From positions 5,084,001 to 5,148,000 of the forward strand of contig CM074762.1 of the NCBI GenBank assembly GCA_037355855.1: a stretch of 64,000 nt of DNA, written 5' to 3'. The translations under genes and the position numbers were made by a program. This document shows positions 30,419 to 53,401 of the stretch, in pieces. The stretch's first letter is position 1. Each line of letters opens with the position of its first letter. The notes below the pieces were generated by a model, which saw only the letters and a list, made by a program, of their open reading frames with translations, did no database searches and was not told the origin of the DNA. The DNA comes from Pseudo-nitzschia pungens. Its lineage: Eukaryota > Bacillariophyta > Bacillariophyceae > Bacillariales > Bacillariaceae.

Positions 30419-33129
30419 CCTCTATGTTTATGTTCAAAGGTGAGGGATTGAATTTTGTCAAGTTCTGTTCTTAGCAGGTCAAGCGACCGTTGTAGCTGTT
30501 GTTGCGATTTTCTGTTCGGGTTCAATCAGACAAAAGCTTCGGGGAATTTGTTCCACGCTTTGGAACCATACCGGTAATTACGTATTCGTGCCCGTCACGT
30601 TGTTTTAATATAATATTAAAATATTCATTCGTGCTTAGTATGACAAGAACTGTGTTGTCATCCAAACACGAAGGCGATTCACTCCTTTTCTGTTTCCATT
30701 ATCACCTAGACCTACGTAACATCTGCGATAACTCACACGCAAAGAACTTTTTTTAAAAAATGAGGTTGCCATGACAGCTACGATTTGATATTAAGTATTG
30801 AGAAAAGTTAAAACATTATTTAAAATTATCACTAGTTAAAAAAAACGATCAATGACATTCTTTGTATGGGGACTAAGCTTCAGCATCTGATGTGACGTGC
30901 TTCGATAACGGTCACAACCAATAATTGACTTTCCCATGGCCGAAGGGTGATACAGCGAGATGTGCGAAAGGGCGATGGTCTAATGTAGAGTAATTATTCT
31001 CGAAAGTTGCAATACCTCAATAAATTTCCATTGTATCCATTTAAGAACAGACCATCTCTTCTTCGTTCCGAACACCTTTCTTTCTTCCTTACAAACCTGA
31101 AAACAATAAGTACAATACCGAAAATACTGCAGCCCTAGACTTTTCAGGTCGTATTTTTGATATACTACTACAGAATTCCTAGAGGAGTAATTAGCTAACC
31201 AAGTGTACCTTTTAGTAGTAACCTTACGGTATGAATAACGTTTTACCGTAGAGGATGTAGAACAGAGAAGTCAGCTGATATAATATAAGGTTACCGTATT
31301 CGGGAGTACGGTACAAGTGCTGACGATACGTGTACTAACGCATCATACCGTACCAAAAATGCAACCATAGTTGTCAGCGCTACTGCCCGCACCTCCACCC
31401 GCATCCCCTGTGAACTTGCCACGAGCACTACTACAATGTATGTGAGGAAGGTCCCAATGGTAGGTAGGTAAGTGCCAAGAGAGGGACAACATTGTATGCA
31501 CCACAGGCGGGCACCGCGTGGTGCCCGCAAGAGTTGCACAGTCGCTGCCGGGCGTAGAGGTGTGGGACAATGACTTCCCCATCTGCTCACCTCATTGTCC
31601 CTTGGTCAACCCCAAGCTGAGGACAATGAGGAGTGCTGTCCCTGTGGGAGTGGATCAACTAAACTTTCCTTTTCCTCCCCAGACACCCCTCTCCACCATG
31701 ACAACATCCCACTCCCATCACCCAGTTGCCCTGTTGGTAGTGCCAATGCTGCTCAACCGATGCCACTCAACCTGCGTCTGACTGCTGCATGCTGCTTAAC
31801 CCAGCTCTCCTGATCCTGTTGATCATCCACTGCTTAATCCAATACTCTGTCGCTGCTTAACCCAGCACTCTCCCCTTCCCAAAACCAGGGCCACCTTAAC
31901 TCTCCCTGTGATCCCCTCTGTCCCCACAAAAATCTGTTAGAACAATGATGTGTGGCAGTGGTGGCATGCAAGTACAGTGTCCAATACCATGGAGCAGGAT
32001 AGGAGCGCCCAATGCTGTAATCCAAATCAACGTAATTGATTGGCTGAGACATTTCCTAATGACACCGGGGCATTGGAACAAGGTGACCAATGAACTGAAC
32101 ACAGAGTACGTGCACTCCAAAGTTGACATACATCCAAGACGGTACCAGGGCATCCCATAGGATATGCGCCCATTTTTGGTTGAGGGTGCAACAGTAAGAT
32201 TACCGCTTTCGCATCAGAACCCCATTAAAAAATAACATGGGTATGCAACCGAAAAAATTCCAGGAGTGAAAAGTAACAAGAACAAGAGCAAATGGAGTAC
32301 TAGTAGTGCTTTGATATTGCTTGTCAGCAAAAGATAACAACAGCAGCAGCACATCAAGTGCTGGCAAACAGTGAGTCTACAGAGTAGTATACTGTTCAAG
32401 CCCTATTGCATTCCCTAGGTAGTACTAGTTTTTGCCCTTGTTGGTCTGTGGATCTGTTGTAGATCAGTCTTCTACTAGCTGTAAAGTACCAGTAGTGACC
32501 TAACTTTGCAAAATATTTTCAACTCCAAACTCATACTAATAAGCGGCAGTTGTGCTTGAGAATGAGCTTTGCACATGCTAATTAGACAATTTGCGCATCG
32601 CGCATTTTGTCCGACGTTCCGATGTTCCAGTACTAAAAATACGTAGATTTCTACACAACTTTACCATGCGATATCTCGCTCCCTTTTACACCACCAATCA
32701 CAACCCCAGGACCTACATGTATTAACCAAGACCTGCGCTCTTTGTTTCTGCTATTGGTTCAGTTGCTGGCTGCTTCTTTTGGTTGATTTGGTTGCCAATT
32801 CACCACTCGGCCGATCGATCCGCAGCAACAACCAAAACAAAACCGACACCTAATTTTCTACAGCACCTCCAGTACCGATTCTACAGCGATTCGATGCCGT
32901 CTTACTGTTGCCGTCTGTACTGCTTCGATCTGTTTCCAAGCTCCACCCTCAAGGCCCTTAAGTATATATTATACTTAATGTTCTACATTGTTTCCAAGCT
33001 TCCTAAGTGATTTCCACTTAACGTTCTACATTCTTCAAGGTTCCTTGCTAAGTCCCCTAAGTCTTTTCAAGGTGTAGTTCACGAACAGCCCCTTCCACTG
33101 TAGGTATATTTCTACAAGAAATTCCAGCT
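30419..33129. other. Intergenic region, no gene recognised
   Basis: It holds the upstream region of the ankyrin-like gene, then partly CpG-poor sequence. A hairpin GCGGGCACC-GCGT-GGTGCCCGC lies at 31507-31528. An inverted pair GGGACAATGA/TCATTGTCCC lies at about 31562-31602. No coding region is convincing. Confidence 0.5.
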
Positions 33130-33930
33130 GTCATCTGTTTTCAAGTCCATTGCCCTGCTGGACCATATGTGTTTTCGCTTATGGTCCTACTGTTTCTTGA
33201 CCCAAGCCCCAAAGCCGCTAAGTACAGTTTGCTTAAGGCTCCACCACCTACATAACCCTCTCAGGTGTACTGTATAAATGTCATCTGTTTCCAAGTCTAC
33301 TGCCCTGATGGACCCTAAGTGTTTTCGCTTATGGTCCTACTGTTTCCTGACCCAAGCCCTAAAGCCACTAAGTACAGTTTGCTTAAGGCTCCCCTACCTA
33401 CATATACCTCTCAGATGCATTCTTCAACTGTCATCTGTTTTCAAGTCTACTGCCCTGATGGACCATAAGTGTTTTCGCTTAAGGTCCTACTGTTTTTCTG
33501 ACCCAAGCCCCAAAGCCGCTAAGTACAGCTTGCTTAAGGCTCTCCTACCTACATATACCTCTCAGATGCACACTTCAACTGTCATCTGTTTTCAAGTCTA
33601 CTGCCCTGCTGGACCATAAGTGTTCTCACTTAAGGTCCTACTATTTCCTGACCCAAGCCCCAAAGCCGCTAAGTACAGCTTGCTTAAGGCTCTCCTACCT
33701 ACATAACCCTCTCAGATGCACACTTCAACTGTCATCTGTTTTCAAGTCTACTGCCCTGATAGTCCATAATTGTTTTTGATTATGGACCTACTGTTTTTAT
33801 GACCCAAGCCCCAAAGCTGCTAAGTACATGTTACTTAACGCACCACCACCATTATATACCCCTCCAGTTCACAGTACAGCAGAGACCTGTTTTCAAGCCT
33901 ACAGCCCTGATGGTCCATAAGTGTTTTCAC
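33130..33930 (+). repeat. 150-bp tandem repeat, about 5.5 units
   Basis: The anchor GTCATCTGTTTTCAAGTC recurs at about 33130, 33280, 33430, 33581 and 33731, with a diverged start near 33883. Spacing is 150-152 bases. Units share TACTGCCCTGATGGACC, CTGACCCAAGCCCCAAAGC and TAAGTACAG. Short open frames across it are by-products. Confidence 0.9.
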
Positions 33931-35523
33931 TTAAAGGCCCTGTTTCCAAGCTACTACAGGAGAGCAAGTTCAAGTTCGAACAGAAGGCCAGCTGTTACGA
34001 ATTTGAATTTGGTAGTAGGCTCCACCGCCTCTACGTGTCTCCTACTACGAAGTTGGAACAGAAGGACAGCTGTTACGAATTTGGTAGTAGGCTCCGTACT
34101 ATATGTACCATACAGTGGTAAGGAATGTGTTTGGGGCACTCGCATTACTGATGCTGCAATACAGCATGCAGAGACCAGTTTTGCTTGCGTCAGCTGACCA
34201 CTTGCATTACAGATACTATGTATCTAGGCAAGGGTTTTGCTTGTGTCAGCTGACCACTCCAAGCATCACTGATGCTGTACAGTGGCATTCAAGGGACAGT
34301 TTTGCTTGTGTTTTCCCTTTCACGTTCTTGTTACCCCGTCTCCTGTACGCTTTGCAACAGCTGTGTCTGTTGTGCTCTGGACTGGTTCGTTTTTTTCCTG
34401 TTTCTTACCAAGGTTCGTGTGCAAAATAGCCGTCTTTACAACCTGGGGCCTATTCCCCATGGTTGAGGCGGCGCGTCGTTCTACAACTTGGGGCCTAACC
34501 TCTCTTCGATTGAGGCGACGATAAAGCCTGGTTACAGACTGAGTAGCTTTTAACCACCTTCGGTGGATTTTCCTACTTAAATAAGTATATTATTATTTGC
34601 ACATGCTAATTAGGCCCTTGTAGAATTTTTCATGTTTTCAAGTACGGTACTCATACTACTTTTAGATCCATAAGGAGATTATGATACCAACACTGTACTC
34701 CATATTTTGTAACATCGTTGATGCAAGTGCAAAATGTGGCTAGTTTCATGAAACAAAACCAAGCCACCTCTATCTCTTAAATCACAATTTTCATAGTAAG
34801 TTCTAAAATTTAACCATTCTTAATAGTAGTAAAAGTTAGCAAACTTTGATGCTCAACCTTCTTTAACTTGCAGTTTGATGTCCTATTCATGTACAAGATG
34901 GAATGTGTTGCAGAATGTACTTCTAGTATCATTTTCTGCTGTGTTGTCAGGTGTAAGTTTTGGCAATCTATCTTTTTGGAGCTGAAAGTTTTGGCCAAGT
35001 ACATGTGCTTGTTAATCAAAGACCAAAGGTGAAAACTTTGCAGTCTTGGTGATCAAAATGAAGCAGCCACAGTATAATCCGACTGCTATTCTCAATATAT
35101 CAAAAGAGAGGACAGAATGAATTGTGAGCTGAAATGAAGATGCTGAATAGAATGAATTCAGCAAAGTGTATATCCTTGGACAAAATTGTTTCTACTAGTT
35201 TCATAAAATAGTAACAACAAGCTCCTTTATTGCAAAGATTTTCCAAATCAGTAAAGATTTTCCAAATCAGTAAAGCTCCATTCTTTGTCTTCTGTAATTA
35301 GTTTGAGGTTTGTATTGGTGATGGATAGTTTGTCTTGGACTGTAAATATTAGAAGGGGATGATATTGTGTTGCTGTGGATTGAGGCTTCAAGCCATCAGC
35401 ATGTGGTTCCTCTGTCTCTTGCAAACTGTTCATCAATTTTTCAGAGAGAAGAACTAAGGAACCAAGCTGATATTGTTGCTAAGGCAATAAGACAACAACA
35501 GGAATAATTGAACATGTATATTA
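33931..35523. other. Intergenic region with minor repeats, CpG-poor in its right half
   Basis: It contains a duplicated unit around AGCTGTTACGAATTTG (33990 and 34070), a roughly 45-bp tandem pair near 34435-34530 (GGGGCCTA...GAGGCG), and a 19-bp tandem repeat at 35235-35275 (AAGATTTTCCAAATCAGTA). From about 34740 to 35520 almost no CpG is present. No gene is supported. Confidence 0.5.
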
Positions 35524-36268: not shown

Positions 36269-37966
36269 TTACTTCTCTGGTTCAGGGCTATCCCTGCAAT
36301 AATAGGGATGGACTCTCCTGATGTTAACCCGGTCAGTTACAAAAGGAGCAGTTTCAATAGTTACAGTTCCATTATCATGGGCCTTGAGCACCTTGTAAGG
36401 TCCTTGCCGTGGGAAGGATAGTTTTGGAATAATGCCCTTCCTTTCCAGGGTGACATAGTCTCCTTCTTTATAGACATGGGGGATCCTCTTCTGGTTTTCC
36501 CTGATGTTGCTCTTGTGGATGCTTTTCTGCTTCCTTGCTTGGATTGCTTCCCAATCCACTGGGAAGTTCACCGGCATGAACATGTCTCGACCAAACACCA
36601 GTTGCGCTGGGGAGTACCCCAGGGTGGCATGGATGGCGCTTCTGATAGCATATGCTGCCTTGGTGGTGAATTCCTCAAAAGGGTCCTCCTCGTGGAGGTC
36701 CCTGTTTTCCAGGTTGAAGGACAACAGACAGTCCTTTAATACCTGATGGATCCTTTCCAACACCGAGTTGGATTGTGGGTTCCAAGCCCCACTGGGCTTT
36801 CTTTTCATCCCCATGTTCTCGCAGAGCTCTTGGAACTCTGCTTTGAACTCACTCCCGCCATCAAAGCCAATTTCCTTTGGGCGCGGATATCTTGCCAGCC
36901 AGGTACTGTCCAACAATCGTTGAGTTTCTGCTGCATTTGGGGAGTCCTTCAGGTGAGCCAGTTCAAACCATCCGGTCACTGGGTCCACCATGGTGAGGAC
37001 ATGGATTTGGTAGTCTTTACCATTTTTGTTGTGGACAGTTGCAGGTCCCCAGAGGTCCACATTGACCCTCTGCCATTTGGTGATCTCAGCTGCTTTTTCC
37101 GGTAGTAGTCCATACTTCTTCCGGCCACTCTTCTTAAACATCTGACACGTGTGGCAGTGTTTGCAGAGGTCCTGAACGTCCTTCCGTAGGCCTTTCCAGG
37201 TGAACACTGAGCGTATGCTCTGTTCCATTCTCTTTTCTCCGGGATGGACCAACATGCTGTGGTACCATTCCATAACTCTATCCTTGAGTTTGTCAGGGAT
37301 CAGAATCTTCCCTTCCTTGTGGATTAGACTGTAACCTTCCACATTTTTGGTGGTTAGGCGGTTGTCTTTTTCCAGAGCATTCACGATTCCTGTGTCCTGT
37401 TGCTGGTAGAACTGAATCATGTCCGGGGCAAGTGGGAATGCACTATTGCCCTGGAATTCTTCCGGCGCTTCTCCAAGTGGGAATAGGAGTTGCCGGAGGT
37501 GCTCTTCCTCATCCGCGTAGGTGAGGGGCTTATTTGGTGGTAGCCATTCCACTGTGTCCGCTGGGTCATCTGTGATGTCCAAGCGAGACAGCGCGTCTGC
37601 TGCATCGTTGTCTTTGCCAGCAACGTGCTTGACTACGGGGTGGAACTCCTCCATGAGGAGTCTCCATCGGACCATCCTTTGGGTGGGCATCTGCTGATAG
37701 AGCAGATTAAGGTGGTCTGTGTGAATAATTACATCTTGTCCTCGTAGGATTCCCTCAAACGCTTTCAAGCCCTCCACTATACCAAGGAGCTCTTTTTCCC
37801 CGACAGTGTAGTTGAGCTGCGCTGAGTTCAGTTTCCTTGTGTAGAAACCAAGGGGTTTGCCATCTTGGCATACAGTTGCTCCCAGTTGCCTGTCACTGGC
37901 GTCTGAGTAGAGGTGAAATGGTTTCGTAAAATCCGGGAATGCGAGTTTCGCTTCATCTGCGAGCAC
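36269..37966 (-). pseudogene. Gypsy pol, RNase H and integrase portion
   Basis: About 565 residues. RNase H motifs YSDASD, GEKELLGIVEGLKAFE, IHTDH and DNDAADALSR come first. The integrase zinc-binding region (HSMLVHPG ... CKHCHTC) follows, then the catalytic triad: D in VNVDLWGP, D in EIGFDGGSEF, E in VLERIH. A C-terminal DNA-binding-like domain follows (GPYKVLKAHDNGTVTIE). The frame is intact up to the break at 37966, where the TIR element severs it from the reverse transcriptase. The part is well preserved but cannot be made as one polyprotein with the rest. Confidence 0.9.
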
Positions 37967-38060
37967 GTCCGAAAACTGGTTCGCGACCCATCGCGACCAA
38001 TCGCGACCGGATCGCGACCCAATCGCGACTTGTCTAAAAAAAACGCGACCCCAATTTTTT
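37966..38060 (+). repeat. Left TIR and subterminal GCGACC repeats of copy A
   Basis: After the 24-bp TIR, the motif ATCGCGACC recurs four or five times in 60 bases. Matching TCGCGA-containing motifs sit beside the right TIR (43740-43850). Such subterminal repeats are commonly transposase-binding sites; that role is inferred here. Confidence 0.7.
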
Positions 38061-38362
38061 ATTTCACAACCTTTTTTCCATTATTCTCCACTTTTTTCCA
38101 TTATTCTCAACCACATTTCTCCCTTTTCTCAACTCCCCCAACGTGTTGACGGAAATGTTCTGTTCTAGACCCTGACATTCAGTCCCTCTTCACATTTTCA
38201 TTCCATTTTACACATTTGACACACTTGACTCAACACAACAAATAATTTTTAATCCAATTTACTTCAATCACACAAAAGTGTTTCGTCACGCACCTTTGTC
38301 AATTTTTTTTTCAGTGGTGTCACATCACATACCGGAATCGCATCACAAAAACACACACCACC

Positions 38363-38690
38363 ATGCCGAAAGCTTCCTCCGACCCAAGGCACTTTGCCAA
38401 TGAGCCCAGAATACCCAAGACATTCCAATGTCGCAACTGCATTGCCTCCGGAAGAAGAAGAAAATCAAAATCCTTCAAGGGATACAAACAAGAATCGAGC
38501 CACTTTCACACCTACCGATATGTATCTCAAGGCCTCTCCAGGCATCTCTATTCCAACAGTGATTGCCGAACTTATTATGTTAAGAACGATCTTATGGATT
38601 TTATTTCTTCTGCGAAAGCCGAAGTCACCCTCCCTTTGGTCCGACACACACCATCACAGTATGGACTGACAATGACACTAGGCAGCAAGC
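38363..38690 (+). pseudogene. Zinc-finger-like N-terminal protein fragment in copy A
   Basis: The frame starts MPKASSDPRHFANEP. It has a CRNC pair, then LSRHLYSNSDC, a Cys2...His-x6-Cys spacing resembling zinc fingers at the front of some eukaryotic transposases. After about 108 residues it runs straight into the minisatellite (continuing meaninglessly to 38923), so it looks truncated. Copy B has no counterpart that I can see. It may be the remnant of an autonomous element's transposase gene. Confidence 0.45.
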
Positions 38691-39755
38691 AGCAACACGT
38701 CGATAATACAGGGGGGACAGCAAGCAGCAGCAACGCGTCGATAATACAGGGGGGGGACAGCAAGCAGCAGCAACGCGTCGATAATACAGGGGGGACAGCA
38801 AGCAGCAAGCAGCAACGCGTCGATAATACAGCGGGGGACAGCAAGCAGCAGCAACGCGTCGATAATACAAACGCGTTGATAATACAGGGGGGGGACAGCA
38901 AACAGCAACCAACGCGTCGATAATACAGGGGGGACAGCAAGCAGCAAGCAGCAACGCGTCGATAATACAGGAGAGGGGACAGCAAGCAGCAAGCAGCAAC
39001 GTGTCGATAATACAGGGGGGACAGCAAGCAGCAGCAAGCAGCAACGCGTCGATAATACAGGGGGGGACAGCAAGCAGCAGCAACGCGTCGATAATACAGG
39101 GGGGGACAGCAAGCAGCAGCAATGGGTCGATAATACAAACGCGTCGATAATACAGGCGGGGGGACAGCAAGCAGCAGCAACGCGTCGATAATACAGGGGG
39201 GACAGCAAGCAGCAACCAACGCGTTGATATTACAGGGGGGGGGGACAGCAAGCAGGGGGGACAGCAAGCAGCAACGAACGCGTCGAAAATACAGGGGGGA
39301 CAGCAAGCAGCAACCAACGCGTTGATATTACAGGGGGGGGGGACAGCAAGCAGGGGGGACAGCAAGCAGCAACGAACGCGTCGAAAATACAGGGGGGGGG
39401 ACAGCAAGCAGCAACGAACGCGTCGCAGCAAGCAGCAACGAACGCGTCGACTATGCAGGGGGGGACAGCAAGCAGCAACGAACGCGTCGAAAATACAGGG
39501 GGGGGGACAGCAAGCAGCAACGAACGCGTCGCAGCAAGCAGCAACGAACGCGTCGCAGCAAGCAGCAACGAACGCGTCGACTATGCAGGGGGGGACAGCA
39601 AGCAGCAACGAACGCGTCGAAAATACAGGGGGGGGGACAGCAAGCAGCAGCAACGCGTCGATAATACAGGGGGGACAGCAAGCAGAAACGCGTCGAAAAT
39701 ACAGGGGGGGGGACGGCAAGCAGCAACAAACGCGTGGATAATACAGGGGGGATAA
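38688..39755 (+). repeat. G-tract minisatellite of copy A (unit about 35 bp, roughly 30 units)
   Basis: The core unit is ACGCGTCGATAATACAGG, a run of 6-9 G, then ACAGCAAGCAGCA with variable AGC repeats. Each unit contains the MluI-type palindrome ACGCGT. Variants include TCGAAAATACAGG and TCGACTATGCAGG. Long open frames on both strands are by-products of the repeat. The same unit occurs inverted in copy B. Confidence 0.95.
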
Positions 39756-40900
39756 TACACGAGAATATTTTTAAAAAACTCTTGCCGTGGTTGTCTTTCC
39801 TTGTCAGCGATCGTATCGGTCGTTCCCCTTTTCAGCAATCGTATCGGTCGTTCCCCTCCGTCTCCGTCTCCGTCGTTCGTCTCGTTCGTCTCACTGGTAG
39901 GGATTATTTCGATCCATCGCTCCTTTTCGCAACAACCGAAAATCGTAGGGGTGTCGTTTTTCTCTGGAAAGACGAAATTTAAAAAAACAACGACAAACCG
40001 TTAGTACCCTCGTCGTCCCCGTCCGAAGCGATTGTAGCGATCGTACCCCCATCGTCCCTCTCTGGAGCGATTGTACCCCCGTCGGCCCGCCTCTCTGGAG
40101 CGATCGTACCTTCGTCGTCCTCGTCGTCCGTCTCCGCACCAATCGGTTGTGATTTTCGTCTTCGTTGTTTTCAATATCAGTACGTCGTATATCTGGGTAA
40201 GCCAGGTAGTTCCAGGACTTCAACACACCCAACCTCCGTGATATGAATCAGACAACAGAGCAGAAAGCAAGAGCGGCCGTTCTCAAGCTCCCCACAGCAT
40301 GTGTGTCTTTTTCAAAAGAGATGGTCCCGGTGCCTGATGGCTAGGTTAAACTGGACCGGCCAGAATATTCCGATGCATGAGATGAAACGAAAATGAAAAT
40401 GAAAATGAAAATTATGACACATCCGGTACGAGGGAGATGTGGGGCGGAAAATCGATCTGCCACTGTGACGTAGTGCTTTAGTGCTTTATTACGTGCTTTA
40501 TGGTACTGTGTGTACAGGCTGAGTGGAAAAAATGACAGCAATGTACGTACTTTACAGTACTAAGTGTACAGGCTGAGAAAAAAAATGACAGGTCTGTGCA
40601 TACCCGTTCCTAGTAGGTACCGACAGTACGTACAGGCTGGGGATGTGTAGGTTTCCAGTACGGTGTAAACGGTACGTATAAACTGTACGTACGGTACTGG
40701 TACAAATCTTTTGGCGCGAAGTGGTGGAGGTACGGTAACTTAGTGTTGGTACATATTATACAGGATGAGCCTTCCCCGAGATGGTGGTAGCATTAAAACA
40801 TGGAGAGAACACCTGTTTAGCAGTAGTAGACAGCAGTAATAGTGGCACTACTGGATTGTATGCAGTTGGTATTGTTGGTTCGAGTCCCGTCACGGGAATG
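39756..40900 (+). repeat. Conserved core of the satellite element, copy A
   Basis: The segment containing CGATCGTATCGGTCGTTCCC, GAGCGATTGTACC repeats, GAACGGCCGCTCTT (reverse strand) and the GGTTCGAGTCC motif is found inverted in copy B (about 49440-50640). No convincing protein frame. A GAAAAT pentamer/hexamer run lies near 40388-40415. Confidence 0.8.
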
Positions 40901-40980
40901 TCTTTTGCTACATCACGATGCAATAGAAATATTTTTGCTGCGAAGCATTTGTCACCAGGTGATCTATTCAGTTATTCAAT

Positions 40981-42190
40981 GGTGACATCCATACCATTGG
41001 TGATTTTTGAATACTTCTTTTTGCATACTCTTGCCCATGCATAGGATGAGAAATATTCACACTGGAATCACAAAATATTGACTAGATTCATTCACATATT
41101 TGATTTTACAGCAGTTTCTACTAAATGCTGCGGTACTGGGCCAAATATTAATTATTCAGTGGTGACATCCAAATTATTGGTGATTTTTGAATACTTCTTT
41201 TTGCATACTCTTGCCCATGCATAGGATGAGAAATATTCACACTGGAATCACACAAATATTGGCCAGATTCATTCTGATATGTGATTTGGTACTTTTTTCT
41301 AGTAAATTCTCCAGTAGTTGGCCAAATATTAATTATTCTGTGGTGACACCCAAATTATTGGTGATTTTTGAATACTTCTGTTTGAATAGTCTTGCCCATG
41401 CACAGGATGAGAAATATTCACACTGGAATCACACAAATATTGGCCAGATTCATTCTGATATGTGATTTGGTACTTTTTTCTAGCAAATTCCGCAGTAGTG
41501 GGCCAAATATTAATTATTCAGTGGTGACACCCAAATTATAGGTGATTTTTGAATACTTCTTTTTGAATAGTCTTGCCCATGCACAGGATGAGAAATATTC
41601 ACACTGGAATCACACAACTATTGGCCGCATTCATTCAGATATGTGATTTGGTACTTTTTTCTAGTAAATTCCGCAGTAGTGGAACAAATATTAATTATTC
41701 AGTGGTGACACCCAAATTATTGGTGATTTTTGAATACTTCTTTTTGCATACTCTTGCCCATGCACAGTATGAGAAATATTCACACTGGAATCACACAACT
41801 ATTGGCCAGATTCATTCCGATATGTGATTTGCTACTTTTTTCTAGTGAATTCCGCAGTAGTTGACCAAATATTAATTATTCAGTGGTGACACCCATACCA
41901 TTGGCGATTTTTGAATACTTCTTTTTGCATACTCTTGCCCATGGATAGGATGAGAAATATTCACACTGGAATCACACAAAGATTGGCCAGATTCATTCAG
42001 ATATGTGATTTTACAGTATTTTCTAGTAAATTCCGCAGTACTGGGCCAACTACTAATTATTCAGTGGTGACATCCAAATTATTGGTGATTTTTGAATACT
42101 TCTTTTTGAATAGTCTTGCCCATGCATAGGATGAGAAATATTCACACTGGAATCACACAAAGAATGGCCAGATTCATTCAGATATTTGAT
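40981..42190 (+). repeat. 181-bp satellite, about 6.7 units, copy A
   Basis: The anchor GGTGACA(C/T)CCAAATTATTGG recurs at 40981, 41161, 41342, 41523, 41704, 41885 and 42066 (period 180-181). Each unit includes GATTTTTGAATACTTCTTTT, TCTTGCCCATGCA and ATTCACACTGGAATCAC. It is CpG-poor. The same satellite is inverted in copy B at 48745-49410. Confidence 0.95.
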
Positions 42191-42539
42191 TTGATGGTAT
42201 ATTCACTGAGGTAGTACTATTCTTGCTGCTTGTAGTAGTAGTACAGTTATACACTGCTGCTACATACTACTGCAGTGCGTAGGTAGTAGTACATAAGAGG
42301 TAGTCCAAAATTATGGCGCAGCGGGGCTGGCTCTCTGTGGTTTAGGTGGCGCGCGATATCACCATCATCAGCTTTCTACTGGTTTCTACTATTACTTCAG
42401 TACGGTACATACTACTACTAGTAGTAGTAACTCTACTGCTATCATGTAGAAGAAATCAATTCTCGGCAAACACATGCATGACAGAAAATGCATGTGTCGT
42501 AAATCTTACTTCACATAATTTTGGGTCGGAACGGAACAA

Positions 42540-43050
42540 GAAAGACGGCAACTGAAATATAATGAGATGGAAATGGTAAGTGAACCACATCAAGGTTGGA
42601 GGAGGTATTAATAATGGATTTTGATTCGTCTAACTGTGCATCATTGACTTGCCTGCTTGCTCCTGATGGGGAGGCGACCGCAACTGCTGATGAAATAGGA
42701 TGCAACGGCAAATGAAATATAATGCAACGGTGAGTGAAGCACATCAAGATCTGGGGTATTGATAATGGATTTCAATTGTTCTAATTCTGCATTGAGTTGC
42801 CTGCTTGCTACTGATAGGGAAGAATCAACTTTAATTCGACGGGGCAACTGAAAAATGATGCGAAACATGATGCAACGGGGCAACTGACACATATTGCGAT
42901 CGCAAGACAAATATGATGGGATCGCAACTGACAAAATGATGCGATTGCAACTGATGAAATATGATGCGATGTGAGGAGACCTTTACTGGCAGTACAGATA
43001 CCGGTATGGATGAAATTATCACGATGACCATTATTTAAAAATCGTTTGAA
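42540..43050 (+). repeat. AACTGAAATA-type repeat region, copy A
   Basis: Units resembling GCAACTGAAATATGATGCGA and GCAACGG recur. Two larger units share CACATCAAG...GGTATTAATAATGGAT...GAGTTGCCTGCTTGCT. The inverted counterpart in copy B is the 177-bp array at 47735-48420. Confidence 0.75.
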
Positions 43051-43059
43051 CCAAAATTT

Positions 43060-43385
43060 GTGTGGTGTGCATGAGGACGAAGACGATCGGAGCAAAGAGC
43101 AACAACGATTTCAAGGACGACAAAGACGATCGAAGCGAAGAGCAACGACGATTTCAGAGAGGACGACGAAGCCAATCGAAGCAAAGAGCAACAACAATTT
43201 CAGAGAGGATGACGATTTCAGGGAGGACGACGAAGAGGAAGGCAATTTGGAGCGAAGAGCAACGACGACTTCAGGGAGGACGAAGACGATCGAAGCGAGA
43301 AGCAACGACGACTTCAAGGACGACGAAGACAAGGACGATCGAAACGAAGAGCGACGACGATTTCAAGGACGACGACTTCTTTTAA
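43060..43385 (+). repeat. GACGAAGACGATCGAAG array, copy A
   Basis: Imperfect units of about 30-40 bp containing GACGAAGACGAT, GAAGCGAAGAGCAACGACG and TTTCAAGGACGAC. Open frames encode only Asp/Glu/Arg-rich low complexity. It occupies the same relative place as the AGGCAACGCCCAT array of copy B. Confidence 0.8.
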
Positions 43386-43865
43386 CAAACCAAAATTTGT
43401 GTGTGCGTGTGTGAGAAAATTGAACAGAGAATAAACAATTATTAGAGTAATATCAATATTTATCAAAAGAAAGACTTATATTTTGCATCATAGTGTTTCA
43501 AAATTTTTTTTCATGGGGGTCGCGATTCCTGGGCTTCGGGTAATAATTGTGATTTTTGTGATGAATTTCTTGAGGGGTGTGATGGGAAATACTTTGTGTC
43601 GGGATGAGAAATCAATTTTTGGGAGTGAATTTCTGCAACAGTCTCATAATATATAATGATGGTAGGGTCAGTAATAATGAGTCAGATTGAAAAAAAATTT
43701 GGGTCTTTATTTTTTTTTTCTCGTAATTGAGGTAGTATCTGGGTCGCGATTGGGGTTGCGAATCGCGAGAGAGCTAGGAATCGAGCTACGTCAAAATGAG
43801 CCAGGAATAAATCGCGACCCCCCTAAATAAATTCTTGGGAGGGGTCGCGAACCAGTTTTCGGACG

Positions 43866-44909
43866 CATCCTCTTCGCCTCCATGAAAGCTTTCTGCTCTG
43901 CTGGGCCCCAGTACCAGTTCAGTTTTCCCTTTTTCCCTGCAAGCTTGTTGAGGGGGGCCAGGATGTGGGAGCGGCGCTTCCACATGTCCCTGTAAAAGTT
44001 GACCATCCCAAGGAACATCTTGAGTTGCTTGGTGTTCTTGGGGGGTTCCAGGCGCTTCATCGCCTCCAGTTTCTTTGGTTGGGGTTGAATGCCCTCTGTT
44101 GTTAGTAGAAACCCCAAATACTCCACTTCTTTTTGCATGAAGAAGGATTTTCTGAGGTTGGCTCGGAAGCCGGCATCATCCAGTCTCTGTAGGACTGTAT
44201 CGATTTTGTTGAGGTGATCCTGTTCGGATTCTCCCTCTCGTTGAATGATCAGGATATCATCAATATAGACAAGGACGTAGTCCAGGTCCCCTAGTAGGTT
44301 CATCATGACTGATTGGAAGATATCCGGAGCACACGCAATCCCCATTGCTAGTCTCTTGTAGGCATACTTTCCCCACGGCAGGATGGTGGAGCAGATTTTC
44401 TGGCTCTCTTTGCAGATGGGGATGGTATAGTATCCTTGGGACAAGTCCAGCGCCGTAGCTGATTGGAACTTCTGTAGTCGTTGGATTGTTTCCCCTATTC
44501 GTGGTAGTGGGAATGGTTTCCTCTGGATGGCGGCGTTCATTTTCCGGAAGTCTGTGAGGACTCGGATGTCGCCTGTCTTCTTTGGTTGGCAGAAGGTAGG
44601 AGATGCCCACGGTGAGTCATCATCGTGGGGGAGTTTCTCCAGGACTCCAATCTCACAGAGCCTGGTGATCTCCTTTCGAAGTGCTTGTTCAAAGGCATGG
44701 GGCACAGAGTAGTACCTCTGCCGGACCGGTTTGACTCCTGGTTGGAGCTCAATGGACACCGGTTCTATATTTTTGAGTAGACCCAGCCCTCCTCCAAAGA
44801 GTGTTGGGAATTTCTTCAGTGTTTTCTTCAAGGCTTCCTTGGACGCGTCCGTAATCTCCAGGTCATTGACCATGGCGTCTATATCGACTTTGGAGTAGTC
44901 TGCGTCCAA
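43866..44909 (-). pseudogene. Gypsy pol, reverse transcriptase portion
   Basis: Starts in frame near MDADYSKVDIDAMVND and carries reverse transcriptase motifs in order: GVLEKLPHDDDSPWASP, VLTDFRKMNAAI, ATALDLSQGYYTIP, CAPDIFQSVM, the catalytic YIDD in VLVYIDDILII, and AKRM at its broken end. Translation continues for a few nonsense codons into the inserted element and stops at 43791. The upstream frame (ILQQEEERQAKILDADY) overlaps the end of the gag frame in a different phase. Confidence 0.9.
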
Positions 44910-45271
44910 GATTTTGGCTTGCCTCTCTTCCTCCTGTTGGAGGATCGGACTTTGTGTGTTGGTTCGGCCAAGTAGGTCCGAGCGAGCGTTCGCTGGACAA
45001 GTCCGAGTGCCTCAGTAGAGAGAATTCTCTGTAGAACCTCCAATTTCTGGTCTCCGTGGAGTTTGTCATTGCCAGCAATTTTCTGGTCAAAGTCTCTCTT
45101 CCAGATAAGGAAGAGTTCTGGTCTTTCAGTACCATTGAGAACCTTCAGGTAGTCGCTGAATGCGATTCCACCTTGTTCGCTGTCTACATTCATCTTTACG
45201 GTGGTGGCGTCTTCCGGCCAGTCCTCCCGTGTGATGTTGAAAGGTTTCAGTTTGGTTCCTTTAGACGCCAT
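44879..45271 (-). pseudogene. Shortened gag remnant of the gypsy element
   Basis: 130 residues starting MASKGTKLKPFNITREDW, with a gag-like helical stretch (ELFLIWKRDFDQKI; KLEVLQRILSTEALGL). It ends after a basic tail and overlaps the reverse-transcriptase frame. The usual gag C-terminus with zinc knuckle and the protease are missing, so this region appears deleted or fused. Confidence 0.65.
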
Positions 45272-46047
45272 GGTTAATCAGTTTCTTTTTATTTACTTTA
45301 GTTTAGTTACAGTATTTCTGTAAGTTGTTATTTGGGGTGGAAATGAGCAAAAAGTGGTTGTTTCAGTTTGCTCCAGTTTTCTCTTTGTCTACACGATATC
45401 CCGTGTTGTAACTGATTTTCCCCTTTCGTAATACACGTTATTCCGTGTTGTAACTGATTTTGCTTTAGGCTTGTCCAGTGGTGGGAGTTGTTTCTCTCTT
45501 TAGTTCCCGGGAATCCTGTGGTTCTCCGGAGTTGTTTCTGTTTTTATTTCGTGGGATTCGATTCCCGTGGTTCTCCGGCGTTGCTTCCCTATTAAGCAAT
45601 CACCGGGCCGGTCCCACTTCCCGTTTCCCGTGGGATTGGTGGTGTTTAGGTATTCATTATATACCTTTCCGGATATCCGTATACTTCGGTTTTGGTTGGC
45701 ATCCCCTATTCGGTCTGTCCATCCACTCAGTGTTGGTCCAATTAGTCCACTCACTGGATTATGTGTCATTTTTTCAGCGTGTGTTTTCAAATTTTTCGAT
45801 TACATGCTGTTGTCGACCATGGTCCTGTTCAGGTACTTAGGTGTCTCTGTTGCTGCTGTTGCTCCCTTCTTTGGGCGCCAACAGTTGCTGGGGTCGGTCT
45901 TCCTTGTGCTGCAGACACTGGATATCCTTCTCCCTGTTTTGCTTCTCTGCGCCTCCATTTTTGGCAGTCTTTCGGTCCCGTCGGCGCCTTGGTCGATCGG
46001 TACCTTTCTGCTCATGGTCATCAGCGCTCAGCTTGATTTTAAAATCA
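45272..46047 (-). other. Gypsy 5' leader between LTR and gag
   Basis: About 0.78 kb with no convincing protein frame on the element's coding strand. It should hold the primer binding site immediately inside the LTR (TGATTTTAAAATCAAG on the minus strand), but I cannot match this to a tRNA by eye. Confidence 0.5.
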
Positions 46048-46229
46048 TGCCATACCCCGGGTCTACTAATGAATAAAGTAGTGATATGCAAATTGTGAGC
46101 TCTATCAATTAGTCTATTGCTATTGCTTTCGATTGGCATTTGGAATCGGCGATTCCAACGCCTCGCTAATTTATCCTCAACCTTAATCCAGTCCCGAGTA
46201 GACTCGTGACTGTATTCCGGTGCACGGCA
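46048..46229 (-). repeat. 5' LTR of the gypsy element
   Basis: 182 bp, one mismatch to the 3' LTR, with target duplication CATAC outside it. Confidence 0.9.
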
Positions 46230-46245
46230 CATACATGCTCTATCA

Positions 46246-46706
46246 GGAACATTATGAAAAAAAAAAACTTTTCTGGAAAATTTCCATTTTCATGCGCATT
46301 GTGCGCGCGACTACTCTCAAAAAATCTGTGGGCAATAAGAACGCCTCTTCTATAATTAATATGCGACCATAATTTAACGGTCTTAAACGGTCATCTTTGT
46401 CCTCAAAACGATTGTCCTCAAAAAGTGTCCTCAACGATTTTGTCCTCAACAGACTGTCCTCAACCATTATGTCCTCAACAATTATGTCCTCAATGTTTTG
46501 TCCTCAACCTCAACGTTGAGGACACTTTTTGAGGACAGTTTTGAGGACAGTTTTGAGGACAGTTTTGAGGACACTCTGCGTACTCGTACAGCCGTTAAAG
46601 TGGATATTCAACAAAAAACAGCCGTTAAAAATTACATCAATTTTATTGCGCGCAACGCGCATGAATATGGAAATTTTCTCAAAAAAACTTTTTTCCATAA
46701 TGTTCC
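46246..46706. mobile_element. Foldback element with TGTCCTCAA hairpin array
   Basis: The ends are imperfect inverted repeats of about 60 bp (GGAACATTATG...TTTCCAT..TCATGCGC). The centre holds about eight TGTCCTCAA units (46398-46510), then about five inverted TTGAGGACA units (46514-46575), pivoting on CCTCAACGTTGAGG. The whole can fold into one long hairpin. CAG at both borders might be a 3-bp target duplication. There is no coding capacity. Confidence 0.75.
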
Positions 46707-46969
46707 AGGAAGTCAAACAGAAACCCCTTGCAATCTACTAGAGCCTGCTTAATGGAGGCACTCACAAAAATGATGTGGTAGTAGCATATTGCAAATACTT
46801 TGTACAAAGCACTATATTCACAATCCTTTCAGAAGCTGGCTTTTTCCAAATTACATAAAGTTCTGGACGCAGTGAAAGCATTCTTGAAGTAATTCAAATA
46901 CAAAGTACGTCTGATAACTGATTTTAGACGTGGGTCAAAAATTTTCGTGCCGGGTCCTTTTGGGGTCAA

Positions 46970-47420
46970 ATATTTGACCAAAGGATTGTCCCCCGGGTTC
47001 ATTTTTTCAGTCCCGTACCATATATATTTTAGAGCCAATGCCAATTATTTTTCGAGGCAACGCCCATTATTTTTCCAGGCAACGCCCATAAATTTTAGAG
47101 GCAACGCCCATAAATTTTCGAGGCAAGCCCCATTACTTTTCAAGGCAACGCCCATTAATTTTCGAGGCAACGCCCATTAATTTTCCAGGTAATGCCCATT
47201 AATTTTCCAGGCAATGCCCATAAATTTTCGAGGCCACGCCCATAAATTTTCGAGGCAAGCCCCATTACTTTTCGAGGCAACGCCCATTAATTTTCAAGGC
47301 AACGCCCATTAATTTATGAGGCAACGCCCATCAGTTTTAGAGGCAACGCCCATCACTTCAAGAGGCAACGCCCATCATTTTTAGACGCAACGCCCATCAT
47401 TTCTAGAGGGAACGCCCATT
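46970..47420 (+). repeat. AGGCAACGCCCATTAATTTT array, copy B
   Basis: About sixteen units of roughly 27-28 bp with the core GAGGCAACGCCCATTAATTT and variants (AAGCCCCATTAC, CATAAATTT). Confidence 0.9.
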
Positions 47421-47499
47421 ATCACATGATAATAATGTTACACTATTATTGATGTTAAGAACCACTAGTATTCTGATACTGTACTGGTACAAACTGGAT

Positions 47500-48420
47500 T
47501 TCAGTTGCCGTCGTATTGCATTTCAGTTGCCGTTGCATCCTATTTCAATTGCTGTCGGATTGTATGGCCGTCGCATCTTATTTCAGTTCCCCGTCATGTT
47601 CCAGTCGCATCCTTGCATCATATTTCAGCAGTTGCCGTCGGATTGTATTTCAGCAGTTGCCGTCGCATCGTATTTCAGTTCCCGTCGGATTGTATTTCAG
47701 TTCCCGTCGCATCATTGTATTTCAGTTGCGTTTTGTGTATTCTTCCCTACGAGGACCAAGCAGGCAATTTCATGCATGGTTAGAAGTGAACTCCATGATC
47801 AATACCCCCGATCTTGATGCAGTTCACTCACCGTCGCATTGTATTTCAGCAGTTGCCGTCGGATTGTATTTCAGCAGTTGCCATCGCATCGTTGTATTTC
47901 AGTTGCGTTCTGTGTATTCTTTCCTACGAGGACCAAGCAGGCAATTTCATGCATGGTTAGAAGTGAACTCCATGATCAATACCCCCGATCTTGATGCAGT
48001 TCACTCACCGTCGCATTGTATTTCAGCAGTTGCCGTCGGATTGTATTTCAGCAGTTGCCATCGCATCGTTGTATTTCAGTTGCGTTCTGTGTATTCTTTC
48101 CTACGAGGACCAAGCAGGCAATTTCATGCATGGTTAGAAGTGAACTCCATGATCAATACCCCCGATCTTGATGCAGTTCACTCACCGTCGCATTGTATTT
48201 CAGCAGTTGCCGTCGGATTGTATTTCAGCAGTTGCCATCGCATCGTTGTATTTCAGTTGCGTTCTGTGTATTCTTTCCTACGAGGACCAAGCAGGCAATT
48301 TCATGCATGGTTAGAAGTGAACTCCATGATCAATACCCCCGATCTTGATGCAGTTCACTCACCGTCGCATTGTATTTCAGCAGTTGCTGTCGGATTGTAA
48401 TTCAGTTGCCGTCAGATTGC
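47500..48420 (+). repeat. 177-bp satellite and TTTCAGTTGCCGTCG repeats, copy B
   Basis: Four units of about 177 bp share GAGGACCAAGCAGGCAATTT, AACTCCATGATCAATACC and TGCAGTTCACTCACCGTCG. They are preceded by short ATTTCAGTTGCCGTCGCAT units. The strong similarity between units indicates recent amplification. The 294-residue frame across it is an artefact. Confidence 0.92.
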
Positions 48421-48744
48421 ACCCAAAATTATGTGAAGTTTGGCACACGCATTTATGTGCTTTTTCTGTACGTGCTTTTTCGGTTTTGGTGCATACCAAG
48501 TACAAAGCACTACTGTATTTACTACAGAAGTACTCGTGATTACTACAAGCCTGCCCTCACCCACTTCGAGCCCACCCCGCCGCGCCATAATTTCTGACTA
48601 CATTTATGTAAGGTTACTCCCAATGGAAAAAGGACAGACGGAGCGGAAAAAGGACTAATCAATACACAAACAGTAGTAACTACAGTACTAAACTATTAAA
48701 TGACTTATCTACATTACTATTTTGGACATTTCCACCATTCCAGC

Positions 48745-49410
48745 ACGGATTCCAGTGTGAATATTCCTCATACTGTGCATGGGCAAGAGTATTCAAAAAG
48801 AAGTATTCAAAAATCACCAATTATTTGGGTGTCACCACTGAATAATTAATATTTGGCCCAGTACTGTGGAATTTACTAGAAAATACTGTAAAATCACATA
48901 TCTGAATGAATGTGGCCAATAGTTGTGTGATTCCAGTGTGAATATTCCTCATACTGTGCATGGGCAAGAGTATGCAAAAAGAAGTATTCAGAAATCACCT
49001 ATATTTTGAATGTCACCACTGAATAATTAATATTTGGTTCACTACTGCGGAATTTACTACTAGAAAAAAGTACCAAATCACATATCTGAATGAATCTGGC
49101 AAATATTTCTGTGATTCCAGTGTGAATATTCCTCATCCTATGCACAGGCAAGAGTATTCAAAAAGAAGTATTCCAAAATCACCTATATTTTGGATGTCAC
49201 CACTGAATAATTAATATTTGGTCCACTACTGCGGAATTCACTAGAAAAAAGTACCAAATCACATATCTGAATGAATCTGGCAAATATTTCTGTGATTCCA
49301 GTGTGAATATTCCTCATCCTATGCATGGGCAAGAGTATTCAAAAAGAAGTATTCAAAAATCACCTATATTTTGGATGTCACCACTGAATAACTGAATAGC
49401 TCACTTATTG
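48745..49410 (-). repeat. 181-bp satellite, about 3.7 units, copy B
   Basis: The anchor TCCAGTGTGAATATTCCTCA recurs at 48751, 48932, 49116 and 49297. It is the reverse complement of the satellite in copy A. Confidence 0.95.
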
Positions 49411-50640
49411 TGACATGTGCTTCGCAGCAAAAATATTGCTATCGCATCATGATGTAGCAAAAGACATTCCCATGGTGGGACTCGAACTGGTAACACCAAT
49501 CGGGGACAATCCAGTAGTGCCACTATTACTGTTTACTACTGCTATAGAGGTGTTCTCTCTATGTTATAATGCTACCATCATCTCGGGGAAGGCTCATTGC
49601 TGTCATTTTTTCCACTCAGCCTGTACACACAGTACCGTAAAGCACTTAATAAAGCACTAAAGGACTACGTCACAGTGGCAGATCGATTTTCCGCCCCACA
49701 TCTCCCTCGTACAGGATGTGTCATAATTTTCATTTTCTTTTCATTTCATGCATCGGAATATTCTGGCCGGACCAGTTTAACGTAGCCTTCAGGCACCGGG
49801 ACCATCTCTTTTGAAGAAGACACACATGCTGTGGGGAGCTTGAGAACGGCCGCTCTTGCTTTCTGCTCTGTTGTCTGATTCATATCACGGAGGTCGGGTG
49901 TGTTGAAGTCCTGGAACTACCTGGCTTACCCAGATATACGACGTACTGATATTGAAAACAACGAAGACGAAAATCACAACCGATCGGTGCGGAGACGGAC
50001 GACGACGACGACGAAGGTACAATCGCTCCAGAGAGGGCCGACGGGGGTACAATCGCTCCAGAGAGGGACGATGGGGTTACGATCGCTTCGGACGGGGACG
50101 ACGCGGGTACTAACAGTTTGTCGTTGTTTTTTTTTATTTCGTCTTTCCAGAGAAAAACGACAGATTGGTGTGGAGAGGGACGACGACGACGAAGGTGCGA
50201 TCGCTCCAGAGAGGGACGACGAAGGTGCGATCGCTCCAGAGAGGGACGACGGGGGTACGATCGCTCTCTCCGGATGACGAGGGTACTAACAGTTTGTCGT
50301 TGTTGTTTTTTGAATTTCGTCTTTCTAGAGAAAAATGACAGGAACGACGAGGGTACGATCGCTACGATCGCTTCGGACGGGGACGACGAGGGTACTAACG
50401 GTTTGTCGTTGTTTTTTTAAATTTCGTCTTTCCAGAGAAAAACGACACCCCTACGATTTTCGGTTGTTGCGAAAAGGAGCGACGGATCGAAATAATCCCT
50501 ACCAGTGAGACGAACGAGACGAATGACGGAGACGGAGGGGAACGACCGATACGATTGCTGAAAAGGGGAACGACCGATACGATCGCTGACAAGGAAAGAC
50601 GACCACGGCAAGAGTTCTTTAAAAATATTCTCGTGTATTA
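49411..50640 (-). repeat. Conserved core of the satellite element, copy B
   Basis: Reverse-complement counterpart of 39756-40980, including the B-box-like motif at about 49480 (GGACTCGAACTGG on the plus strand) and three or four extra GATCGCTCCAGAGAGGGACG units at 50020-50260. The shared stretch near 49600-49950 is highly similar to its partner. No gene is recognised. Confidence 0.8.
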
Positions 50641-51625
50641 TCCCCCCTGTATTATCGACGCGTTGCTCCTGCTTGCTGTCTCCCCCCCTGTAATATCGAC
50701 GCGTTCGTTGCTGTTTGCTGTCCCCCCTGCTTTGTCTACGCGTTCGTTGCTGCTTGCTGCGACGCGTTCGTTGCTGCTTGCTGCTTGCTGTCCCCCCTGT
50801 ATTTGCGACGCGTTAGTTGCTGCTTGCTGTCCCCCCTGTATTGTCTACGCGTTCGTTGCTGCTTGCTGTCCCCCCTGCATTTTCTACGCGTTCGTTGCTG
50901 CTTGCTGCGACGCGTTCGTTGCTGCTTGCTGCTTGCTGTCCCCCCTGTATTGTCGACGCGTTCGTTGCTGCTTGCTGCTTGCTGTCCCCCCTGTATTTGC
51001 GACGCGTTCGTTGCTGCTTGCTGTCCCCCCTGTATTGTCGACGCGTTCGTTGCTGCTTGCTGCTTGCTGTCCCCCCTGTATTATCGTCGCGTTGCTGCTG
51101 CTTGCTGTCCCCCCTGTATTATCGACGCGTTGCTGCTGTTTGCTGTCCCCCCTGTATTATCGACGTTGCTGCTGTTTGCTGTCCCCCCTGTATTATCGAC
51201 GTTGCTGCTGTTTGCTGTCCCCCCTGTATTATCGACGTTGCTGCTGTTTGCTGTCCCCCCTGGATTAATTTTTTTTCTACGTATATTCCTGTACAATTTG
51301 TACTGGAAAATCGAATTTTTTGATTGGCTCATTCACTCAGCACCTGTATCTGCTTGCTGTCCCCCCCTGTATTATCGACGCGTTGCTGCTGCTTGCTGCT
51401 TGCTGTCCCCCCCCCCTGTATTATCGACGCGTTGCTGCTGCTTGCTGCTTGCTGTCCCCCCCTGTATTATCGACGCGTTGCTGCTGCTTGCTGCTTGCTG
51501 TCCCCCCCCCCTGTATTATCGACGCGTTGCTGCTGCTTGCTGCTTGCTGTCCCCCCCTGTATTATCGACGCGTTGCTGCTGCTTGCTGCTTGCTGTCCCC
51601 CCCCCCTGTATTATCGATGCGTTGC
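50640..51625 (-). repeat. G-tract minisatellite of copy B, two blocks
   Basis: Same unit as in copy A but inverted (C-tracts on the plus strand): 50640-51260 and 51350-51625, separated by about 90 bp of other sequence. The right block is highly regular: GCTTGCTGTCCCCCC, TGTATTATCGACGCGTTGCT. Confidence 0.95.
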
Positions 51626-51635
51626 TGCTACATAC

Positions 51636-52460
51636 AGCGCTACAGGGATACAGCGCTACGATACTGCGCTACAGGGATACAGCGATACAGGGATACAGCG
51701 CTACAGGGATACAGGGATACAGCGCTACAGGGATACAGCGCTGCAGCGCTACAGCGTAGAATAACAGAGCTCTGTAGCTCCAGTACTGTATTATACGGAG
51801 CAACACAGCTTACGGAGTAGCGATTAATTAGATGCTGGCTTGCTCTCTTAATAACTGTTTGGGTCAGGCGTCCGGTCGTAGTACATATTGTACACCAGTG
51901 ACCCGACCCCAGCGGTAGCATAGTATCTTAGCATGGTAGCATGGTAGGTTAACATATCCAGTATTTCGTAGCATTTTAATAACTCATAGATAATAGAGCT
52001 CTGTAGCTCTAGTACTGTATTATACGGGTAGCGTACGGAGTAGCGTAGTAGCGTAGCTCCGCTTATTAATTACTTCGTAGATTCAAAGGTGTGCTAGCGC
52101 GTTGGGTAACTGTCTGGGTCAGGTATCCGGTCATAGTACATATTATACACCAATGACCCGACCCCGGCGGTAGCATAGTATCTTAGCATGGTATCATGGT
52201 AGGTTAGCATCTCCAGTATTTCGTAGCATTAGCAACCCTAACCTTGTACCGTAGCACTCAGTTACACTGTATTAGTACGGATGCTATACCCGGGGTATGT
52301 ACAACTGGTACAAATTGTACGCGAAACGCCTGGTATCTCTGGAGTTAGCAACCCATACCACACGTTCGCTACAGGGATACAGGGGATACAGCGCTACAGG
52401 GGATACAGCGCTACAGATATACAGCGATACAGGGATACAGCGCTGCAGCGCTACAAACAT
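51636..52460. repeat. ACAGCGCTACAGGGAT arrays and a 229-bp tandem duplication, copy B
   Basis: Short arrays of TACAGGGATACAGCGC occur at 51636-51752 and 52368-52458. Between them two units with period 229 begin AGAGCTCTGTAGCTC at 51766 and 51995 and share GACCCGACCCC and GGTAGCATAGTATCTTAGCA. These blocks are absent from copy A. Confidence 0.88.
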
Positions 52461-52692
52461 TAACCCTAATGGTGGTTGTACAACGAATTTTGACCCCGGC
52501 TCTTAATTTTTCGACCCAAATATTCGAGTTTGGAGCAAAAAATTAATTTTTGGAGCCAAAAAATAATAATTCGAGCTTAAGAAAGGCACTTTCGCTCCAA
52601 ATAATAGAAATATTGGAGCTAAAAACATCTAAAAAATAAGAGGGGGGTGGTCGAAACGGGTCAAAATGGTCGAAAATCAGTTATTAGACGTA

Positions 52693-53401
52693 ATCATTAG
52701 AAAGAAACATAGTTGATCAGTAGATGTTATACTCCCACACATAGTATCTTGCCAAATTAATAATATTGTTCTGTTTGTTGTCATTGACATTCAGTAACAA
52801 ACATGTGACGACAGGTCATAACCTGGAACAGATGGTGTCAAACAAAACTGCAATGACCAAGCCTCATGTGGATTTTGTTTTGTTCATTTCTAATTCATGA
52901 CTTTTCTTTGATTCTTTGCAGCCAGCCAAAAAGTATTGTCCCAGGCCTCAGATTGTGAAGGTTTTGGTTGCTTGTACATGATGCTACCTGATATTTGCAA
53001 TCAATCAAATCCTTACGAAAACGATACAGCCCCAAAGGCGGATCAACCCGAAAGGAAACGACTTGATCTGCTGGGTACGTTAGAAATCCGAACGAATGCA
53101 TGGAACGAATATGGCACTCATTTGAAAACTTGTAAAGTTCTCTTGTTTCACCAAAGCCACATCACGAACTATTTTAAATAATGTTAAGATACAGTCGGTG
53201 TTGTGCAGAGATGCGGTATCATCATCTTTTTGTTTTCTTTTTTTCAAACTGGACTAACGTGACGTGCTAAATCTCATCCCTTGGATCCAAGCGATCGATC
53301 CATCAATAAAATGCAAATTATTCTAGAGCCACGCCACCAATTTCGTTCCGTTGTGTCAACGTTAGTGTCTGCCTGCCTGCCTGCCTGACCGCTCTCTTCG
53401 T
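52693..53401. other. Intergenic region, no gene recognised
   Basis: A short frame at 52936-53181 (81 residues) shows no family features. The right part should hold the 3' UTR of NDUFS4; a CTGC tetranucleotide run lies near 53369-53388. Confidence 0.5.

Follow-up and report, generated by a model that had tools for sequence, protein, structure and literature searches.

Satellite-bearing transposons in the diatom Pseudo-nitzschia pungens and their probable derivation from Plavaka-like, multi-gene elements

A 64,000 nt stretch of the genome of the diatom Pseudo-nitzschia pungens (assembly GCA_037355855.1, contig CM074762.1; C5:5084001-5148000 in our contig numbering) contains two transposable elements, named A and B here, that carry the same set of tandem arrays between terminal inverted repeats (TIRs). 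We refer to the whole stretch as the window and give positions within it unless a contig is named; the genome searched comprised 66.9 Mb in 28 contigs. A and B are non-autonomous and very probably arose by internal deletion from two related multi-gene transposon lineages of the CMCT clade (CACTA/Plavaka/RAG). As judged from the sequence, what remains is the two ends and a non-coding core; the genes are gone, and tandem arrays are present. Their features are as follows.

37964..37965, unstranded: left copy of the target duplication CA of element A, equal to the CA at 43866-43867 and consistent with the empty site
37966..43865, + strand: element A, complete and non-autonomous, 5,900 bp, within a gypsy-like retroelement; delimited by tips, modules and duplication
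37966..37989, + strand: left TIR of A, 24 bp; TCGCGACC-type subterminal repeats come next
38246..38680, + strand: remnant of the start of a transposase gene in A, the bases from 38246 reading as a transposase start
38682..39752, + strand: G-tract minisatellite of A (AACGCGTCGATAATACAGGGGGG...)
39800..40970, + strand: conserved core of A
40972..42193, + strand: 181-bp satellite array of A, 6.8 units
42194..43400, + strand: further repeats of A, partly resembling the 177-bp array of B, and GACGATCGAAGC-type arrays
43842..43865, - strand: right TIR of A
43866..43867, unstranded: right copy of the target duplication CA of A
46906..46907, unstranded: left copy of the target duplication TA of element B
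46908..52690, - strand: element B, complete and non-autonomous, 5,783 bp, inverted with respect to A
47026..48405, - strand: 22-bp and 177-bp (TATTTCAG) arrays of B, by the end equivalent to the right end of A
48748..49391, - strand: 181-bp satellite array of B, 3.5 units
49393..50592, - strand: conserved core of B, 92-97% identical to the core of A in the best-aligned stretches
50641..51629, - strand: G-tract minisatellite of B
51632..52690, - strand: ATACAGCG-type repeat and transposon end of B; the same end occurs in long B copies
52691..52692, unstranded: right copy of the target duplication TA of B

The two tips of A are identical across 24 bp (CGTCCGAAAACTGGTTCGCGACCC) and flanked by CA on both sides, while those of B (CGTCTGATAACTGATTTT and CGTCTAATAACTGATTTT), bordered by TA on each side, show a single difference among their first 18 bp; this confirms the two TIR elements with 2-bp target duplications described in the initial annotation. 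Exact matches to the consensus CGTCYRAWAACTGRTT number four in the window and coincide with the tips of A and B, and six more sites appear when three mismatches are allowed. The arrays follow the same order in both elements, as had been proposed (end, G-tract minisatellite, core, 181-bp satellite, TATTTCAG/CTGAAATA-type repeats, end), although the orientation had to be corrected, with B inverted relative to A. The CTGAAATA-type regions of A and B are about 80% alike, at their best stretches only. Tandem arrays, computed as the union of tandem-array intervals per element, cover 60% of B and 50% of A, so that the description of each element as mostly satellite fits B and is loose for A. For 765 aa of an 879-aa open reading frame (ORF) of A, no homologue was found at E ≤ 0.001, and an Rfam search of positions 37900-52800 gave no match to a known structured RNA. 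Immediately to the left of B, at 46397-46573, TTGTCCTCAA and TTGAGGACA tandem repeats stand in facing orientation.

By comparison with empty sites, A is a proven insertion with a 2-bp duplication. It splits a gypsy-like retroelement (36269-38080 and 43791-45011, - strand), whose reverse-transcriptase and integrase frames, identified by eye without a profile search, flank the element. When the flanks of A were joined with one CA removed (500 bases), each of the 40 scored copies (433 candidates) matched without a break over the junction, covering positions 1-499 or 1-500 at 95-99% identity, and in two fetched copies all 500 bases matched with zero gaps. A second empty site was provided by an A element nested in another A element (L033/L034, C9:2756356-2769024) with a GA duplication: the joined flanks matched three other A copies, including that in the window, over 398 gapless bases at 99.5% identity, and two more at 96.6-98.8% with 3-13 gap positions. 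All 15 elements read at both ends, two of them with one tip mismatch, have a 2-bp duplication, compared by eye (CA, TA, CT, AC, CT, TA, TG, GA, TT, AA, TG, AT, CA, TA and TG). To the left of the retroelement ORF there is also a 150-bp tandem array of 5.4 units (33128-33933).

The elements are numerous in this genome. With up to two mismatches, the A-type 22-mer was found at 224 + 223 sites, compared with 0 + 0 for a reversed control pattern, and the matches listed for the longer A tips include at least 85 exact left and at least 90 exact right tips. In the homology searches, 40 hits each were scored for the satellite (232 candidates), the core (220) and the element ends (228-735), so that the counts given here are lower bounds. 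Ends of A were paired using all listed exact tips (85 left and 90 right), 40 full rows of one end search, 41 of the 42 rows of another, and the 22-mer sites of C1-C3, the listed C4 sites being omitted; the 229 ends collected gave 74 pairs, 67 of them consisting of a left and a right end. Most of these 67 (46) span 5.5-7.5 kb, none is shorter than 1 kb, and eight span 12-16 kb, nested composites among them. A clustering test of A right tips took in 82 of the 90, from nine contigs. For B, 35 left and 38 right rows were used, after dropping rows that start away from the element tip, and yielded 26 pairs, 14 of them below 10 kb.

Longer copies with matching ends exist for both lineages; they measure ~13-16 kb and contain open transposase frames of 1051-1105 aa. 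The six long B copies that we fetched have tips as in B, and the transposase frame is open in all six (1051-1069 aa from stop to stop). For the copy at C1:3.05-3.07 Mb, tblastn shows two in-frame stops, which we place before the start because the open frame keeps the first methionine and the remainder. Two of the six carry large additional ORFs that by their appearance resemble an inserted retroelement. Of the long A copies, that at C2:8647238-8662942 (15.7 kb, TT duplication, transposase of 1101 aa) was read over its whole length and a second, on C4 (L037), in part (1105 aa). The C4 copy is 97% identical to the left end of A (bases 1-713), and the C2 copy 94-95% identical to its final ~480 bp. 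The long A copy on C2 and the long B copy on C8 have five ORFs in common, with identities of 55%, 58%, 33%, 25% and 35%, the transposases of the two lineages being 55% identical. Among 239 tblastn candidates, 43 transposase loci were scored: 18 are 91-100% identical to the B type, one 69% and 24 are 56-57% identical; for eight of the latter, a correctly oriented A left tip lies 380-657 bp upstream.

We call this transposase Plavaka-like (CACTA/RAG-related) on sequence grounds. In an alignment of the query with 27 of its 116 homologues, D384, D493, C515-x2-C518, H752-x3-H756 and E776 are invariant in all 28 proteins, and we assign these residues to the predicted DDE pattern of the CMCT clade, in which the motifs C(2)C and H(3-4)H lie between the second D and the last E. 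The Pfam family Plavaka (PF18759) is matched by 21 of the 28 proteins (best E 3.5e-13). Residues 217-824 have a predicted fold similar to that of RAG1/Transib at 8-12% identity; here, however, there are extra N- and C-terminal parts, and the target duplications have 2 bp. Those of RAG1/Transib have 5 bp. The statement of the initial annotation that no described superfamily accounts for these elements does not hold, because the long copies that share these ends carry a gene for a Plavaka-type transposase; this also rules out a new superfamily, and a long copy with a transposase, the search for which had been proposed as a check, was found in both lineages. A polinton-like virus, an idea raised by the size of 14-16 kb, was likewise rejected, since the long copies have a DDE transposase; no capsid or polymerase family was prominent in three scans, of 7, 5 and 4 ORFs.

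A BAH-like domain in the transposase is only a lead, and among the texts accessible to the literature search no work was found that links a BAH domain with a transposon-encoded or CACTA transposase. A 431-aa ORF of some long B copies (L015:4303-5598, + strand, and others) has an HxD...H pattern, which is typical of 2-oxoglutarate-Fe(II) oxygenases. It has nine homologues, one of which bears a gene number next to that of a transposase homologue (Psemu1/50050 and 50051); the Psemu1 relatives of the transposase are presumably from Pseudo-nitzschia. Pfam gave nothing above noise for this ORF in a test for TET/JBP dioxygenases (PhyH, at best E 0.058, seen for 4 of the 10 proteins aligned), and its structure model was unusable (mean predicted confidence, pLDDT, of 39.7). 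Profile searches against PDB sequences with the transposase family, the transposase C-terminus and the family of the 431-aa ORF returned nothing significant, and NCBIfam returned sub-threshold matches only.

The 181-bp satellite travels with the element. The array in A contains six full 181-bp units, which we compared with those of the copies on contigs C1, C3 and C11. At equivalent array positions the units are 98.4-100% identical, while identity between different units within the window array is 83-95%. In the C11 copy the first unit is lost and the positional match begins at the second. This positional identity across contigs argues that in one copy group the array was multiplied by transposition and not by local rebuilding; in this group of A copies, the sequence comparison establishes that copying of the element took the array along as a fixed block. 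A lack of flanking TIRs in most array copies had been named as a result that would speak against the element model, yet 30 of the 40 scored satellite arrays lie between paired A ends, and nine have one recognised A end, at most 6.4 kb away and in the correct orientation. Nor are TIR-bounded copies confined to the two in the window, given the left-right A pairs of 5.5-7.5 kb described above.

A free genomic 181-bp repeat may have been taken up by the elements, as proposed for a CACTA element of Chenopodium quinoa (accessible text of PMC8978399), and the eight long copies offer no clear source of the unit, the sole match being 34 bp at 85% in the A copy on C2. Against such a capture, which we consider possible and on balance doubtful, a single one of the 40 scored arrays had no collected A end nearby, and no large free 181-bp array was seen among them, in a search that passes over very common words. 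The proposal that a mobile element can seed and spread satellite arrays is thus upheld for spread, as the arrays travel with the element, and not for seeding.

The interiors of the two lineages have been exchanged. In those long copies that have the core (on C8, on C2 and in the part read of the copy on C4), it lies, from the coordinates, between two divergent ORFs. The A copies on C4 and C2 are 96.6% identical at the DNA level in the transposase region, whereas the following 4.6 kb of the C4 copy, comprising an ORF and the core, is 82% identical to the B copy on C8 (95% for the ORF at the protein level); over that C8 interior the C2 copy reaches only 68%, across 1.6 kb. With its A-like transposase and B-like interior, the C4 copy indicates that interiors were exchanged between lineages. 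The single family of the initial annotation is therefore better described as related non-autonomous TIR elements with two diverged sets of ends and, as far as sequence can tell, exchanged interiors. It would be improbable that A and B form one non-autonomous family that has kept its ancestral interior since the split: the module order is identical and the core also occurs in long copies of both lineages, as such a family would predict, but against only 55% identity between the transposases, DNA identity between the two cores reaches 92-97% over their best-aligned stretches, and a mosaic such as the C4 copy needs exchange, or an extreme constraint on the interior. The G-tract array is present in all but one of the six long B copies and in neither of the two long A copies read, a distribution which suggests that this array, too, crossed between lineages.

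That the arrays are an ordinary dispersed satellite spread by array-driven recombination, with TIR-like ends arising by chance or from later insertions, is very improbable: array lengths do vary among copies, and the diverged arrays of L032 and L033/L034 indicate that local expansion, loss and divergence occur, but precise empty sites with 2-bp duplications, duplications in all 15 elements, 447 end sites where the control pattern had none, and positional unit identity in three copies on different contigs contradict it.

In the explanation that we favor, that of deletion derivatives of two CMCT lineages, the Plavaka-type transposases of long copies would mobilize A and B in trans through their ends, so that gutted copies, which keep the tips and subterminal repeats, would be moved along with the intervening cargo. 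A small number of founder elements would see their arrays grow through local duplication before transposition spreads them; arrays may lengthen or shorten locally, and a successful copy would then propagate its own version of the array. Recombination of nested or neighboring copies could have placed similar interiors between the two sets of ends. The elements would accordingly disperse ready-made satellite arrays, the founding of a free-standing satellite being outside what the sequence supports.

Several observations weigh against this explanation. The positional pattern is weaker in L032 on C2 (94.6-100%, with one unit equidistant to two positions), and both 181-bp arrays of the L033/L034 composite fall outside it. 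For the array at C7:4685662, the nearest 12 kb contain none of the A ends collected. Neither long A copy, one of which was read in part, has the G-tract array. The empty-site comparison covers A and not B; only part of the satellite, core and end candidates was scored, with the consequence for the counts noted above; and mobilization in trans is argued from the shared ends. Moreover, the query transposase itself has no match to PF18759, which is matched by its relatives, and the termini CGTC..GACG are unlike those published for fungal Plavaka, namely TGT..ACA in PlavakaA, which has the same 2-bp duplication, and CATCA..TGATG in PlavakaB (accessible text of Kojima 2025, PMC12730594).

With respect to the CMCT clade as a whole (CACTA/Mirage/Chapaev/Transib/Plavaka), the DDE pattern is present, as are TIRs with a target duplication in the range of 2-5 bp (2 bp), whereas the usual CA..TG termini are not. 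As 5'-CA..TG-3' is given there for 'most cases' (accessible text of PMC12730594) and not as universal, we still place the elements in the wider clade. According to the same text, fungal Plavaka elements have a transposase of PF18759, to which the one here is apparently related, and some families an extra gene; the present elements differ in their algal host, the five shared ORFs and the satellite-bearing deletion derivatives, and the main text, as far as accessible, makes no mention of satellite, tandem repeat, diatom or stramenopile.

Satellite or tandem arrays inside CACTA-type elements are already known. A 171-bp satellite lies inside a CACTA element of C. quinoa, whose authors propose that elements spread a captured satellite (PMC8978399), and in the CACTA-like element Jozin of Chenopodium satellite monomers derive from the transposase gene (PMC7320549; accessible text in both cases). 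Jozin and its relatives belong to the same broad cut-and-paste clade and have tandem arrays inside or beside the element; there, the satellite is in a 16.5-kb coding element or transposase-derived, whereas here the elements are gutted and unit homology points to transport as a block. Miniature inverted-repeat transposable elements with internal tandem repeats, such as miDNA4 of Xenopus, Pearl of bivalves and others, are likewise non-autonomous TIR elements with satellite monomers, of ~400 bp in the accessible text of PMC9659126; ours are mostly 5.5-7.5 kb long, with several arrays and a core common to long copies. Among open-licence works accessible to the search, no description of such elements was found in the literature on diatom satellites and transposons, and the matches listed for Plavaka and diatoms concern a green alga and a mushroom. 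What we found new is the Plavaka-like carrier, the unit-by-unit evidence of spread, the swapping of interiors and a group of host organisms different from those of earlier satellite-bearing cases.

The dispersal of satellites is often argued from sequence resemblance. Here, units can be traced by position across contigs, so that arrays are seen travelling with a transposon and later changes of an array can be dated against its transposition. Since open transposase frames are present in the same genome, mobilization of the satellite-bearing derivatives in trans is directly testable. Finally, the Plavaka/RAG clade, known from fungi in the accessible text of PMC12730594, would be extended to large multi-gene elements of an alga.

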